Origin: a virus
Strand: one strand, 5' to 3'
IMG/VR virus record: IMGVR_UViG_3300024239_000355
Span: 124,001-188,000 of that record
DNA: 64,000 nucleotides
Below the pieces are notes generated by a model. That model had not been told where the DNA came from and searched no databases. It worked only from the letters and a program-made list of their open reading frames with translations. Each line of letters opens with the position of its first letter. Position 1 is the stretch's first letter. The position numbers and the translations under genes were made by a program. This document shows positions 57,368 through 63,244 of the stretch, one piece after another.

Positions 57368-58237
57368 ATGAAGATATTCGAAGTGACTGAACCAAAAAGC
57401 TCCGTTTTCTACCACGTGACATTCAAAAGTCGGCTTAAGTCGATCATGAAGAACGGGATTACATCTGGACATAAGCGCAACTGGAATAACCGTTTCGGTT
57501 CCAAGCTTGGCAGCACTAGACTGATCTATTTGTTCAGCGACTATACGTCGGCAGTGCGGTGGGCAGCCCGGATGGAATGGGACTTCCGCGACCAGGGCAA
57601 TCCCGAAATCGTCATCATCCGCATCCAATTCACCGGTTATGGTCGGCGGGACGAACACTGGGAAAATGATGGGTCATGGTGGACTACGGTGGACCCCATT
57701 CCACCGGATCAGATCATCGACGTGATCCCATTGACGCTCGAAATGAAGCGGGAAGTGGCACAAACTGATAAGGCAACTCCACCAGCCCTGCCACTTGATG
57801 AAAAAGTCAAAGTCTTGACTATCCATTCCGGATGGACACGCCTTGGTGGTTCCCCCATTATGGCGGAAAATCTACGGGTATTCGAGAATCCGCTACGGAA
57901 AGAATTCGAGGTAGCTGTCCAAGAAGTATATGCGATGGATGGTGAACCGAGCTTACGGGGCATTGCTCATGATGGGCGTGTTTGGGTATGGAATGCCGAA
58001 AAAGCAACCCATGATGCCTTATTACAAAATCTCGGTCTTCATGATCCAACGACAGGTGATTTTAACTACAAGAACCCAGCCTTCTGTTTCTTCATGGTAT
58101 ACACGTCAACCAGTTCCGATCACCCATTAGTCCTAAGCTATAACGGCGTGGCAAACAACATCGAGGTTCTAAAGAACACCGTAGCCAAACGCTGGAAAGT
58201 CAAAATAATTGATGGTGGACCTTTCATGGCACGTTAA
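57368..58237 (+). CDS. protein with ADP-ribosyltransferase-like N terminus, 289 aa
   Basis: Residues about 8-120 have the look of an ART-fold domain: FYHVTFKSRLKSIMKNGI (a YH-x-T then L-x-x-I-x-x-x-G-I start), TRLIYLFSDYTSAVRWAARM (strand then helix) and EIVIIRIQF (strand). The same start is typical of DarT-like and related NAD-using enzymes. T4 carries Alt and ModA/B of this fold, but this protein is not close to them. The C-terminal half (EVYAMDGEPSLRGIAHDGRV, SYNGVANNIEVLKNTVAKRW) is unrecognised. An in-frame GTG at 57314 is rejected because it would overlap the fibre promoter. No ribosome site is seen at 57368; a TCTAAATA box ends 6 bases before it. Confidence 0.55.
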   Translation: MKIFEVTEPKSSVFYHVTFKSRLKSIMKNGITSGHKRNWNNRFGSKLGSTRLIYLFSDYTSAVRWAARMEWDFRDQGNPEIVIIRIQFTGYGRRDEHWENDGSWWTTVDPIPPDQIIDVIPLTLEMKREVAQTDKATPPALPLDEKVKVLTIHSGWTRLGGSPIMAENLRVFENPLRKEFEVAVQEVYAMDGEPSLRGIAHDGRVWVWNAEKATHDALLQNLGLHDPTTGDFNYKNPAFCFFMVYTSTSSDHPLVLSYNGVANNIEVLKNTVAKRWKVKIIDGGPFMAR

Positions 58238-58242
58238 AACAG

Positions 58243-58274
58243 GAAACCCCCGGACCTTTCGAGCCGGGGGTTTC
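58243..58274. terminator. bidirectional intrinsic terminator
   Basis: An 11-bp perfect stem (GAAACCCCCGG at 58243-58253, CCGGGGGTTTC at 58264-58274) has T-rich flanks on both strands. It ends the ART-like gene on the plus strand and the structured RNA unit on the minus strand. Confidence 0.9.
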
Positions 58275-58636: not shown

Positions 58637-58655
58637 CAGGGTCAGCGAATTTTTT

Positions 58656-58663
58656 GATAAATA
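58656..58663 (+). promoter_or_regulatory. late-type box GATAAATA upstream of the leucyl-tRNA synthetase
   Basis: GATAAATA on the plus strand is the same octamer as in front of four fibre-locus genes. It lies 168 bases before the ATG at 58831. A TTGACC directly follows, but no well-spaced -10 was found for it, so late-type transcription is more likely. Confidence 0.45.
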
Positions 58664-58701
58664 TTGACCATAACTTACTTTTGGGATACTGGGTTCTCAT
58701 C

Positions 58702-58776
58702 ATGTGGACCAATATTCGGATCAACCTTCGACTTATCCTCCCAGTCGCGTTAGCGGCTGGGTCACGCATGAGTTGA
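58702..58776 (+). CDS. possible leucine-rich leader peptide, 24 aa
   Basis: A short frame MWTNIRINLRLILPVALAAG, followed by SRMS and TGA, sits in the leader of the leucyl-tRNA synthetase gene. Four of its residues 9-17 are leucines. A 22-base hairpin (58740-58761: CCCAG/CTGGG and CGC/GCG) overlaps the leucine codons, and a second hairpin (CCAACC/GGTTGG, 58782-58798) lies between the stop and the ribosome site. This is the layout of an amino-acid attenuator. There is no strong ribosome site, so translation is uncertain. Confidence 0.3.
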   Translation: MWTNIRINLRLILPVALAAGSRMS

Positions 58777-58830
58777 TCGATCCAACCTCGGTGGTTGGTC
58801 GGTAGAGATCACCATAAGTCTGAGGTTGCC

Positions 58831-60102
58831 ATGAATTCCCAAGAATACATTTGCGTCATGTTCCCGTACCCGTCTGGGGCGGGCTTGCATCTGGGTCACT
58901 ACTACAACTACGCCATCATCGATTCGTACTGCCGGTGGCGGCGCCTGCAAGGGGCGTCCGTGTTCCAACCGTTTGGGTACGATGCCTTCGGGCTGCCTGC
59001 CGAGAACTATGCCCGACAGATCGGCGGCGACCCGGCGACCGTCACCTATGACAACATCACCCGGTTCCGCCAGCAGATGGAGCGCATGAATACCCAATAC
59101 GTCGAACGCGCAGTCACGTGCGACCCGAGTTACGTCAAATGGACCCAATGGGTATTCACCAAGATGATGGAACGTGGGCTGGCGTACAAAGCCTGGGGCG
59201 ATGTTAATTGGTGTCCGTCCTGCGGGACCGTCCTGGCGAATGAACAGGTGGTTGAGGGTAAGTGCGAACGATGCAGCAGCACCGTTGAGCAGAAACACTT
59301 GAACCAATGGTACCTGCGCATTACCGACTACAAAGATCGATTGATCGCCAATCTTGACTACATCGACTACCCGGAATCCACCAAGAAACAGCAGCGCAAT
59401 TGGCTGGAAAACCTGCGCGACTGGTGCGTATCACGTCAACGCAATTGGGGCTGCCCAATTCCGGTGGAAGGTGAAACCGACACCCTGGATACGTTCGTTG
59501 ACTCGTCCTTCTATTATCTGCGCTATCTGACCGATTCGGACAGCGAGTTCCTGCCGATAGAAAATTACCGGCAAGTTGATCTGTATGTTGGCGGTCCAGA
59601 ACACGCCTGCATGCATCTGATCTACGCCCGGTTCGTCCACATGTTCTTGTACGACATCGGGGTGGTGCCAGTCGAAGAGCCATTCAAGCGGGTCATCCAT
59701 CAAGGAATGATCACAAAGGACGGCGCCAAGATGTCCAAGTCCAAAGGTAACGCGGTCAATCCGGATGAATACGACCCGGACGAACTGCGCATGTATCTGA
59801 TGTTCCTGGGTCACTACTTCGATGGGGGCGATTGGTCCGACACTCATATCAGCGGGGTACGCCGGTTCTTCGGGCGCATGAAGCGATGGCTGGCTGACAC
59901 TTCAGGTGAGGCTATCGACCTGACCGCGTTCGAGAAGCAGTTGAACTACAACGTCGAGAACTTCAAGTTCAACAAGGTGGTCAGTGGCTTCATGGAGTTC
60001 TACAACAAGAACAGCAAGAAACCGGTAGACCGGGTAACCGCAGACCGAATCATTGATTTGCTGCGGGTATTTGCACCGGGGTTCGACGTAGGGGAGGGTT
60101 AA
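58831..60102 (+). CDS. leuS: miniature leucyl-tRNA synthetase lacking the CP1 editing domain, 423 aa
   Basis: Class I synthetase core. It has FPYPSGAGLHLGH with the HIGH-type motif HLGH (20-23), YDAFGLPAENYA (50-61), a zinc site C128/C131/C145/C148, DTFVDSSFYYLRY (220-232), the leucine-site region GGPEHACMHLIYARF (254-268) and KMSKS (300-304). Bacterial LeuRS is about 860 residues. Here the sequence jumps from QQRNW (187-191) to LRDWCVSRQRNWG (195-207), precisely removing the about 190-residue CP1 editing domain. The anticodon helical bundle is cut to about 80 residues and the C-terminal domain is absent. GAGG precedes the ATG. Charging of tRNA-Leu or another acceptor is likely but unproven. 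Confidence 0.92.
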   Translation: MNSQEYICVMFPYPSGAGLHLGHYYNYAIIDSYCRWRRLQGASVFQPFGYDAFGLPAENYARQIGGDPATVTYDNITRFRQQMERMNTQYVERAVTCDPSYVKWTQWVFTKMMERGLAYKAWGDVNWCPSCGTVLANEQVVEGKCERCSSTVEQKHLNQWYLRITDYKDRLIANLDYIDYPESTKKQQRNWLENLRDWCVSRQRNWGCPIPVEGETDTLDTFVDSSFYYLRYLTDSDSEFLPIENYRQVDLYVGGPEHACMHLIYARFVHMFLYDIGVVPVEEPFKRVIHQGMITKDGAKMSKSKGNAVNPDEYDPDELRMYLMFLGHYFDGGDWSDTHISGVRRFFGRMKRWLADTSGEAIDLTAFEKQLNYNVENFKFNKVVSGFMEFYNKNSKKPVDRVTADRIIDLLRVFAPGFDVGEG

Positions 60103-60337: not shown

Positions 60338-61450
60338 TTAGATCAGGAAGCTCACCGGCATTGGTTCAACTTCCATATCTGTCGTATCAATTGATTCCTT
60401 CAGCTTCTCGCTGAAATCGTCGTCCCAGTTCTGGATAATCTCCATCATGCGGACAACCAGCAATGTAGCAGAAATCAAGTCGTCGTGTGTCCCAGATTTG
60501 GCTTCGAACCCATCAGCCTTTGCAACAAAGGTTTTCAGTTCCTTAACCAACCGCATACTGTTCAAACCAATACGCGCACTCTCCACCAAGCTTTTGAAAC
60601 GCATACAGGCAGTCAGCTTGTTGCGCGGAGTGGTATTCAATCCATAACGCTTCCTCCCGCCACCACCATTCCGCTTTGGCTCAAGGATGAATTCACCAGG
60701 GAAGACCTCAAGACCGGTATCGTTGATCACGACCATCGCAGCGTCACCGTAACCACCATTGTTTTCGAACGACCAATAGATGGATGGTTCTGAGATTTGG
60801 AGTGGATGTTCCCTGAGTTCACGGTAGAGCCGGTGGAGAACCTTCAGCAACACGCTGACCTGACCACGGATATCGGTGCTGTTCGAACACCACTCAGCCA
60901 CCTGTTTGAAGTCGGGTAGCTGATAGACTTGGATTGCGGAGAAATCGCGCCCGACACCACCACCCGGATCAAGACCCACTATGTAGGCGTGGTTGGGCTT
61001 GATATCGTCGTAGAAACGTATCTCGCCTTCCTTCCATTTGGGTTCCACGCCGAACATATTTTCAAGGACCATACCCGAGATCAGGGTTTCGTCCTTGGTC
61101 ACGAAACGGCAATTGTGGCTCAATACCTTGTTGGTAAAATATCGCTCAACGCCATCCACCCCGATGATGTCGTAAACTGGTTCTATGCGCCCAGTATCAA
61201 CCAGATTTGATATGAGCAAATCGGTCGGCACTGCATAGATTCGATCACCAATCGAAAGGTCTCTAACTTCAACCTCTTTATGGTCATAGCGGAACAGTAC
61301 GTGATTATCAGTACATTCCAAGTATGACCCACCGGCAAATTCTACTCGGTAAATCCGGCGATCACCCATATAGGCAATACCTTTGAAATCCTTATACCCT
61401 TGATCCGTAAGGATTTTATATCCTTTGGTATTCTCTTTAAATGTTTGCAT
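60338..61450 (-). CDS. terL: large terminase nuclease half fused to a split C-intein (fractured terL)
   Basis: Residues 1-113 are a C-intein ending LSHN, followed by Cys114 as the first extein residue. Residues 114-370 are the C-terminal part of a gp17-like terminase: the end of the ATPase region (CRFVTKDETLISGMVL) and an RNase H-like nuclease with Asp161 (IVGLDPGGG), Glu228 (YWSFENNGG) and Asp323/Asp324 (THDDLISA). T4 gp17 ends similarly with a short PVS motif. The ATPase half is not in the window and must come from a separate gene. The start at 61450 is fixed by an in-frame TAA two codons upstream, which is the stop of the homing endonuclease. Function needs trans-splicing. Confidence 0.88.
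   Translation of the reverse strand: MQTFKENTKGYKILTDQGYKDFKGIAYMGDRRIYRVEFAGGSYLECTDNHVLFRYDHKEVEVRDLSIGDRIYAVPTDLLISNLVDTGRIEPVYDIIGVDGVERYFTNKVLSHNCRFVTKDETLISGMVLENMFGVEPKWKEGEIRFYDDIKPNHAYIVGLDPGGGVGRDFSAIQVYQLPDFKQVAEWCSNSTDIRGQVSVLLKVLHRLYRELREHPLQISEPSIYWSFENNGGYGDAAMVVINDTGLEVFPGEFILEPKRNGGGGRKRYGLNTTPRNKLTACMRFKSLVESARIGLNSMRLVKELKTFVAKADGFEAKSGTHDDLISATLLVVRMMEIIQNWDDDFSEKLKESIDTTDMEVEPMPVSFLI
61112..61450 (-). other. atypically split C-intein of TerL (113 aa)
   Basis: It starts MQTFKENTKGYKILTDQGYK and contains the block B motif ECTDNH (45-50), a linker with DLSIGD (64-69) and the C-terminal blocks VYDIIGVDG and VLSHN. Because block B is here, the partner N-intein must be very short (about 25 residues with block A only). 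This is the arrangement of the known AceL-TerL-type inteins from environmental phages. It has no internal endonuclease. Confidence 0.85.
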
Positions 61451-61453
61451 TAG

Positions 61454-63223
61454 TTAACCTTTGTTGTTTCTCCATATAAATTTGTAATGTCCACAATCCC
61501 ACAGACGATGAAACCCACGTTCCAACATAATTTCCACTTCTGTTTTAGAAGGATCAAAACCCTCTTTTACTAATTTATGCTTCATAAATTTCTGTCGGGC
61601 GTACCGATAGCCTCCATTAACCCAAAAATATCCCGGCTTGGTGACCGACACTAACTCAAAACCCATTGCCCGATACACCGTACCATCGTTACTCCACCGT
61701 CGATCTGCGTAACTCACAACCGATGTAGGATTTTCTTGTTTAACAAAATATACAAATAAACGTGATGCCCCGCCAACACACCGGGTCGAGGTAGCATAAC
61801 GAATTAACTCCCAGCCATCACCATTGAAGCGATTGCGCCCAAACGTCATTAAGGCAACAAGTTCGTCACCATAATATAGCCCCACCGCAACAGAAGATGG
61901 GGTATATCCTTGCGAATGGTACAACGATAAGAACAAACGTTCAGCTTCAACATCAACCGGTGCAATAACACATTGACGCGCATAAACCGCCTTCTGGTTT
62001 ATACCCAATGCCGTGCGAATACGTCCTTCCACTAATGGTCGGTTGGTAAGCCACTCATCTTCAAAAATAGTCAGAAGATGAATATTCTGCTCATTACAAC
62101 GTTCCAATTTCATCAAATGATAATTACGATCCTTACCATTGGCTTCCGAATGCCAATACACACCACAATATTCAATTGCGATATTTTTTTGAGGAACGTA
62201 AATGTCCAATTCATACGGTGCAATGATACGTCTCGAATTCCGGATCAAATCAAAACCACAGGTTTCAACAAATTTCGCCATATCCTCTTCCCCAATTGAA
62301 GTCCTTTTGGGGTAGCACGATGGACACCGAGGCATACTACCAGCATATAAATCATCAAAAAATTCAGTCGAGCACTCATTACACCGCCATTTATGGTCGA
62401 TACAAATCCCCCCATATTCTTCCAACGTGAATAACGGCGTGACATTCCCGACACGCCCCGCCAATGCCATATACGTGTGACGCATTCGACTTGCGGCAAT
62501 CGCCCGCTTTACCACATCATTTTGAGAAGCATATTCAGTCCCAAACCGCTCTTGTATAGATTTTCGTCCTTTTTCGCGCGTTGGTTTATGTAATAGGGTT
62601 GTACAAACCCCATAGCGATCAAGATTCGTCTGAACAACTTTTTCACGCACAGCCGTATCAAACATATGATGACCACCATATTTTTTCTGCTGTACCTCCT
62701 TAATTTGTTCTTGCACCGTCAACGCAGACAGCGGTGAAGATGTTCCATACCGCTCGTTACACGTTGTTCGGACCTTTTTGCGCACTTCCTCCGACGACAT
62801 TGGCGTATTTCCGCCATACCGTTCCATATTGGTACATGCCGCTTTTTCACGCACTTCTTTTGATGCCATCGGAGTGTTCCCACCATACCGCTCCGTATTA
62901 GTCTGCTGGCGCCGTTGGTTAATTTCTTCCACGGCACTACTTGTGCGCCGATCCCATGTCCACCGCGCAGCACATTCTTTCGAACCACATGTGTTGGCGT
63001 AACTATGATCCTTTTGATAGAATTTCTTGGAAGTACCACAATAGGGGCAACTTTCCATCACACCAGTGATGAAAGTTTCATAATACGCTTGGTAAGTGAA
63101 ACCATGGTCGCGCAAATGCCGTGTAAACGCCCCAGTCTTACGTGAGTATGGTTTACCATCTATACGCGATATAACAACTGGTTGTAAAAGTTCGTCGCAC
63201 ATAACAAACCCACAAAGCTTCAT
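61454..63223 (-). CDS. Hef-like homing endonuclease with Vsr-type nuclease domain, 589 aa
   Basis: Paralogue of the enzyme at 7136-8956. The N-terminal zinc site has CPYCG and CGSKEC. About six RYGGNTPM-type repeats (residues about 110-260) follow, then a zinc ribbon (CNEC, CPSC). The Vsr-like core has PYELDIYVP, AIEYCGVYWHSE, YHLMKLERC and TIFEDEWL. The C-terminal domain has GGASRLFVYF and YADRRWSND. The ATG at 63223 is chosen over a TTG at 63235. It ends in the same frame as the terminase half, 3 bases before its start. It probably spreads the fractured terminase locus by cutting intein-free or uninterrupted alleles. Confidence 0.8.
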   Translation of the reverse strand: MKLCGFVMCDELLQPVVISRIDGKPYSRKTGAFTRHLRDHGFTYQAYYETFITGVMESCPYCGTSKKFYQKDHSYANTCGSKECAARWTWDRRTSSAVEEINQRRQQTNTERYGGNTPMASKEVREKAACTNMERYGGNTPMSSEEVRKKVRTTCNERYGTSSPLSALTVQEQIKEVQQKKYGGHHMFDTAVREKVVQTNLDRYGVCTTLLHKPTREKGRKSIQERFGTEYASQNDVVKRAIAASRMRHTYMALAGRVGNVTPLFTLEEYGGICIDHKWRCNECSTEFFDDLYAGSMPRCPSCYPKRTSIGEEDMAKFVETCGFDLIRNSRRIIAPYELDIYVPQKNIAIEYCGVYWHSEANGKDRNYHLMKLERCNEQNIHLLTIFEDEWLTNRPLVEGRIRTALGINQKAVYARQCVIAPVDVEAERLFLSLYHSQGYTPSSVAVGLYYGDELVALMTFGRNRFNGDGWELIRYATSTRCVGGASRLFVYFVKQENPTSVVSYADRRWSNDGTVYRAMGFELVSVTKPGYFWVNGGYRYARQKFMKHKLVKEGFDPSKTEVEIMLERGFHRLWDCGHYKFIWRNNKG

Positions 63224-63244
63224 GTATAATGACAATAAACCAAC

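Follow-up and report, generated by a model that had tools for sequence, protein, structure and literature searches.

The window analysed here, a 64,000-nucleotide stretch corresponding to positions 124001–188000 of a 195,192-bp IMG/VR record that is itself a fragment, contains an uninterrupted open reading frame near its 3′ end that encodes a shortened leucyl-tRNA synthetase, referred to as mini-LeuRS herein (Table 1). The reading frame begins with ATG, and a GAGGT sequence ends 4 nt 5′ of the start codon. Upstream on the same strand lies a gene for a 289-aa protein with no Pfam match (57368–58237, +), which is followed by a terminator-like hairpin that separates it from the mini-LeuRS leader. 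The region beyond mini-LeuRS is occupied on the opposite strand by an apparently interrupted gene for the terminase large subunit (60338–63235, −). Here the 60338–61450 reading frame has an intein-like start (weak PF14890 match) and a terminase nuclease-like domain at its end, and a second frame (61454–63235; DUF7487) separates it from one more terminase-like piece, located farther upstream (record positions 188430–189341).

Table 1. Features of the mini-LeuRS locus, in window coordinates.
Feature	Position	Strand	Basis or remark
Terminator-like hairpin of upstream + strand gene	58244..58273	+	Sequence; consensus scan
Leader element CGACTT-N5-CCC-hairpin-GGG (tentative)	58729..58761	+	Also upstream of relatives L003 and L077
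Leader hairpin, 3′ arm holding Shine-Dalgarno GAGGT (tentative)	58784..58827	+	Three sequences only
Mini-leucyl-tRNA synthetase gene	58831..60102	+	Uninterrupted 423-codon ORF plus stop; family profile match, AF2 fold
HLGH (HIGH motif, residues 20–23)	58888..58899	+	H20, G22 and H23 invariant in 44 sequences
Four-cysteine zinc site (C128, C131, C145, C148)	59212..59274	+	Sequence motif
Site of the missing CP1 editing domain, junction of codons 193/194	59407..59412	+	Thermus residues 226–417 missing; PF13603 absent from whole record
Second missing insertion (about Thermus 437–486), approximate junction	59464..59469	+	Alignment to Thermus LeuRS
Absent leucine-specific insertion (about Thermus 579–635), approximate junction before KMSKS	59713..59727	+	Alignment to Thermus LeuRS
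KMSKS (residues 300–304; K300, K303)	59728..59742	+	Sequence motif
Shortened C-terminal helical bundle, no further C-terminal domain	59839..60072	+	AF2 model, helices 337–355, 365–376, 380–394, 401–414

Using a family profile search, we found that the protein matched bacterial leuS (TIGR00396) best (E = 1e-123, 414 bits), followed by valS (151 bits), ileS (139 bits) and metG (132 bits). The score lies below the curated NCBIfam cut-off of 548, a length-dependent annotation threshold for a model that spans CP1 and the C-terminal domains, because half of the model is missing from the protein. Mini-LeuRS carries the leucine-pocket motifs MFPYPSG, G-x-DAFGLPAEN (here GYDAFGLPAEN) and VGGxEHAxxHLxYARF, with DTFVDSSFYYLRY and YVGGPEHACMHLIYARF also among its LeuRS motifs, and its HIGH and KMSKS motifs sit in the Rossmann catalytic domain. 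Judged by family score and leucine-pocket motifs, mini-LeuRS is a class Ia LeuRS of the bacterial type, and not a ValRS, IleRS or MetRS.

Mini-LeuRS shares its core motifs, zinc site, leucine pocket and KMSKS with bacterial LeuRS (TIGR00396; Thermus, E. coli), which is about twice as long (878 residues in Thermus versus 423 here). An HMMER alignment with the T. thermophilus (Tt) enzyme shows three jumps. Adjacent query residues 193 and 194 pair with Tt 225 and Tt 418, a second jump starts at about query 212/Tt 436 and resumes at about Tt 487, and the third separates about query 295/Tt 578 from query 299/Tt 636. The first of these removes the 192 residues of CP1 and leaves no linker; the two other insertions (about 50 and 57 residues) and most of the C-terminal part are also gone. 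An AF2 model built from the family alignment (pLDDT 92.4, pTM 0.89) contains four helices in the short C-terminal part and nothing regular beyond residue 414. These results agree with the initial annotation, which had described an enzyme of half the normal length that keeps HLGH, the four-cysteine zinc site and KMSKS, with CP1 cleanly deleted, the anticodon bundle shortened and the C-terminal domain gone. The same annotation had proposed that missing proofreading together with little anticodon contact could lead to mischarging of tRNA; bacterial LeuRS works without reading the anticodon, and a short bundle alone therefore does not imply this.

The best match of the model among solved structures was the LeuRS of Mycoplasma mobile (3ziu; TMq 0.91, E = 3e-38), followed by other LeuRS. 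This enzyme is likewise a LeuRS catalytic core without CP1 and also lacks the leucine-specific insertion domain (PMC5059758), but at 637 aa it has a longer C-terminal part, and about 40 residues that precede its T-D/N-T motif have no counterpart in mini-LeuRS.

The same form of about 400–430 aa was found in 43 further IMG/VR contigs of up to 607,744 bp, in three contigs binned with bacterial genomes (L077–L079) and in the 634,780-bp GenBank uncultured huge phage LR745206; a 735,411-bp record gave a longer LeuRS match. Lengths across the family were 398–429 aa, with one member extended to 487. Within an alignment of 44 sequences, which includes a more distant relative at 40% (L056), the histidines and glycine of HLGH, both KMSKS lysines and several leucine-pocket residues were invariant. 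Among unsaturated pairs dN/dS was 0.03–0.15, and the family is thus under purifying selection. The initial annotation had allowed for a frameshift or assembly error in this genome alone, yet the reading frame is intact, and an assembly artefact is excluded because dozens of independent contigs show the same architecture. The editing-free mini-LeuRS is a conserved family, not an oddity of one genome. The gene has decayed in some relatives, one retaining only residues 7–58 and 379–420 (L073, 6001–6326) and another only the first 48 residues (L075, 6001–6144), both amid tRNA-Leu genes; mini-LeuRS is therefore dispensable in places.

A comparison with cellular, huge-phage and Mycoplasma LeuRS had also been proposed. 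A FastTree tree was calculated from 421 shared columns, with 44 mini-LeuRS sequences taken from the window, 42 loci and LR745206. All 44 formed one clade, which has a long stem and a support of 1.0. M. mobile LeuRS fell outside this clade, among CP1-bearing cellular enzymes, although support is weak both at the node nearest to it and at the deep nodes. Its position suggests that CP1 was probably lost separately in M. mobile and in the phage enzymes; parsimony gave at least three losses, a count subject to the weak deep nodes and to possible attraction of long branches. Longer CP1-less LeuRS (506–638 aa) occur in other phages (L053–L055, L057, L068), and three actinobacterial genomes carry a second, CP1-less LeuRS copy beside a CP1-bearing one. 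These Promicromonospora/Antribacter paralogues (L080–L082) resemble mini-LeuRS in being without CP1 and differ from it in their length of up to 615–638 aa, fuller C-terminus, 36% identity and coexistence with a CP1-bearing LeuRS in the same cell. They are possible self-resistance genes.

As previously noted, the 64-kb window is free of tRNA genes, and a search of the whole 195,192-bp record, itself a fragment, gave no tRNA-Leu. The RNA genes of this record are five tRNA-Glu, three tRNA-Asp and one tmRNA, and it also encodes a CysRS-like (460 aa) and an ArgRS-like (575 aa) protein, both named from sequence only. Relatives have mini-LeuRS in or adjoining tRNA-Leu arrays (L005, L006, L019, L022, L026, L027, L029, L041, L078 and others). 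tRNA-Leu made up 44 of the 85 tRNAs lying within 2 kb of mini-LeuRS, against 17 of 198 in the remainder of seven contigs (Fisher p = 8e-15, a value that counts tandem copies, which are not independent), and tRNA-Leu was present at 11 of the 15 loci with any tRNA within 2 kb. For many family members, no tRNA lies closer than 6 kb. Among the relatives retrieved in full, the closest (L003 contig, 607,744 bp; 77% identity) encodes a broad class II tRNA-Leu set with anticodons CAA, TAA, GAG (two), TAG and CAG. The linkage to tRNA-Leu in relatives is our main reason for reading mini-LeuRS as an enzyme that charges tRNA-Leu.

The tRNA-Leu of mini-LeuRS phages fell into two separate length groups, of 72–76 nt (28 genes), without a long variable arm, and 79–90 nt (58 genes), and 82 of the 86 have A73. 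We considered whether mini-LeuRS is a dedicated partner of the short, class I-shaped form, and found no support for this, as the short form is also common in ordinary phages. Its D-arm motif matched at least 120 IMG/VR stretches, nearly all in tRNA-Leu of 73–75 nt, and mini-LeuRS was found in none of 23 control contigs longer than 100 kb, 13 of which were chosen by the short tRNA-Leu motif. The short form is thus not specific to mini-LeuRS phages.

Searches with PF00133 and other synthetase families revealed that mini-LeuRS phages carry other aminoacyl-tRNA synthetases (aaRS), many of them trimmed, along with many tRNAs. CP1-less ValRS-type enzymes occur in three forms, of 509 aa (L239), about 495 aa (L225) and about 462 aa (L237), the last being closest to the PRK13208 type. 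The L003 contig encodes a 488-aa ThrRS without the N-terminal editing region, together with a HisRS-like enzyme of 185 aa, a GlyRS-like enzyme of 252 aa and a GluRS of 295 aa. The possibility that the short phage GluRS is a GluQ-RS was rejected, as the gltX profile scores better (254 versus 137 bits). On a single contig of 507,910 bp (L024), LeuRS, ValRS, ThrRS and ProRS all lack editing domains (L505–L507, L239): the ThrRS is a 405-aa reading frame whose match to the thrS profile starts at position 171 of 565, and the 368-aa ProRS has no PF04073. An IleRS-like protein of 749 aa on this contig retains a CP1-like region. HisRS-like (211 aa) and GlyRS-like (266 aa) mini enzymes are encoded there as well.

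As an editing activity might instead be supplied in trans by the phage, we looked for editing domains elsewhere on these contigs. The CP1 domain of LeuRS (PF13603) gave no match above the cut-off in 21 phage contigs and was found in 14 of 14 control genomes, which argues against CP1 supplied in this way. Freestanding YbaK-type and AlaX/ThrRS-type editing factors were ruled out on 15 mini-LeuRS contigs, none of which had PF04073 (controls 12/14) or PF07973 (controls 14/14). Since the contigs may be fragments, these absences count per contig. The host's own editing enzymes are still in the cell.

The reading that we favour, with a probability of roughly 80%, is that mini-LeuRS is a phage LeuRS cut down to its catalytic core that leucylates tRNA-Leu, most likely the phage's own set. 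The analysis establishes the gene, its architecture and family, its conservation and fold, the linkage to tRNA-Leu in relatives and the missing editing domains; from these we infer the activity, the substrate, the loss of fidelity and the benefit. Composed of a catalytic Rossmann core, a zinc-binding core and a short helical bundle, the enzyme would activate leucine with ATP and transfer it to tRNA-Leu, which would keep phage translation going if tRNAs or charging of the host became limiting or came under attack. Isoleucine, valine, methionine and norvaline would have to be rejected by the synthetic site alone, so that accuracy would rest on the pocket. Because CP1 is missing and the phage appears to supply none in trans, a mischarged product would go unedited by mini-LeuRS. 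Charging is thus predicted to proceed without post-transfer editing, and reduced fidelity would be a reasonable expectation.

Resistance to LeuRS-targeting inhibitors, a role raised in the initial annotation, is possible, and nothing points to it. More broadly, mini-LeuRS might be kept as an escape from an agent that disables host LeuRS; this could be a toxin, an effector of phage defence, or an inhibitor acting at the editing site or the catalytic site. Inhibitors that target CP1 could not act on mini-LeuRS because the domain is absent, the three actinobacterial genomes pair a CP1-less paralogue with a CP1-bearing LeuRS, and AgnB2 provides a precedent for a second LeuRS as a self-immunity gene (PMC5059758). 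However, we identified no gene for resistance or for an antibiotic in the vicinity of mini-LeuRS, and the parallel trimming of the enzymes for Val, Thr, Pro, His, Gly and Glu calls for a more general reason, so we consider this explanation unlikely. Low fidelity could itself be selected, with isoleucine, valine, methionine or norvaline placed on tRNA-Leu to diversify phage proteins. In keeping with this, several aaRS of the same phage lack editing domains, and Mycoplasmas with degenerate editing mistranslate (PMC7373986). We regard it as distinctly unlikely, since phages may merely tolerate the loss of editing as the cost of shorter genes, the host's LeuRS is still present with its editing activity and may deacylate in trans, and the leucine pocket is strongly conserved.

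The initial annotation had also put forward charging of a non-tRNA acceptor. A further alternative of this kind is that mini-LeuRS activates leucine for an acceptor other than the 3′ end of tRNA-Leu, such as a modified base, a protein, a small RNA or a metabolite. Truncated aaRS paralogues are known to have such roles, GluQ-RS, a truncated GluRS paralogue that acts on the queuosine base of tRNA-Asp, being one example; the domain loss in mini-LeuRS is extreme, and an RNA with stable hairpins lies upstream of the gene. We find this very unlikely, as tRNA-Leu genes are the preferred neighbours of mini-LeuRS in relatives and the catalytic and leucine-pocket motifs are conserved in 44 sequences. 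The AF2 model also retains a four-helix C-terminal bundle, so that, unlike in a GluQ-RS-like enzyme, the anticodon-binding domain has not been lost as a whole, and the parallel trimming of other aaRS in the same phages favours a general slimming instead. The upstream RNA itself was rejected as a known or conserved acceptor: it belongs to no Rfam family, had no phage match, and its pair of hairpins recurs in only two relatives. Finally, we give next to no credence to the view that mini-LeuRS is what decay has left of a LeuRS captured from a host. The truncated L073 and L075 copies might speak for this view, but it is contradicted by about 45 intact copies of the same architecture, by purifying selection and by a confident AF2 fold.

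Taking mini-LeuRS as a core-only enzyme for tRNA-Leu, a wider picture is possible rather than probable, in which huge phages run charging free of proofreading, with Leu, Val, Thr and Pro editing lost in one genome. Core-only mini-LeuRS would then charge both class II and short-variable-loop tRNA-Leu, and phage translation would no longer depend on host tRNAs, with an error-tolerant proteome as the price.

Phage aaRS and a CP1-less LeuRS are each already known, the former from huge phages with up to 15 aaRS and 67 tRNAs per phage (Al-Shayeb et al. 2020, PMC7162821) and the latter from M. mobile (3ziu). The main text of Al-Shayeb et al. does not mention truncation, proofreading or LeuRS, nor is LeuRS mentioned in a jumbo-phage survey (PMC7824862). 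Our search of the open literature, with subscription papers mostly outside it, found no report of a CP1-less phage LeuRS; neither a core-only LeuRS family spread across phages nor a single replicon in which several editing domains are lost together turned up in it. The phage enzymes make fidelity testable: according to a 2020 review (PMC7373986), loss of three or more aaRS editing activities is not known from any Mycoplasma, whereas four aaRS of one 508-kb phage are without an editing domain. At about 400–430 aa, compared with 637 in M. mobile, the phage enzymes look like the smallest natural LeuRS. To our knowledge, no shorter one has been described. Close in idea to engineered 'urzyme' cores, they offer a natural test of how little LeuRS suffices for tRNA charging, and work on the genetic code would profit from compact aaRS/tRNA pairs that are possibly orthogonal.

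The leader region (58640–58850, +) folds better than shuffled sequences (z about −3.8). The window, L003 and L077 have in common a CGACTT...CCC-hairpin-GGG element that precedes a hairpin at the start codon. The CGACTT element occurs once per genome, before mini-LeuRS, in the two genomes scanned, and an exact-pattern scan of viral contigs gave no match. From these three sequences, the Shine-Dalgarno hairpin is a tentative candidate for translational control and a lead for autoregulation, which is known for E. coli thrS.

Unusual tRNAs were also noted. Ordinary phages widely carry a tRNA-Leu that lacks the long variable arm (L253–L372; 73-nt core, D-arm TAGCCCAATTGGTAGAGGC). Second tRNA copies with long variable arms occur for Asn (86–87 nt), Thr (85–86), Met (85–90), Lys (83–87), Val (87) and Gln (85), at L026 3055–5615, L183–L193 (L029 contig), L163–L182 (L003 contig) and L019 11562–11646, which gives the impression of tRNA sets duplicated in a different shape. 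The tRNAs at L026 4378–4775 and at L012 5949–6025, the latter in the window's own genome, have the T-loops ATCGTTA, ATCGTAA or ATCGTCA in place of TTCGANT.
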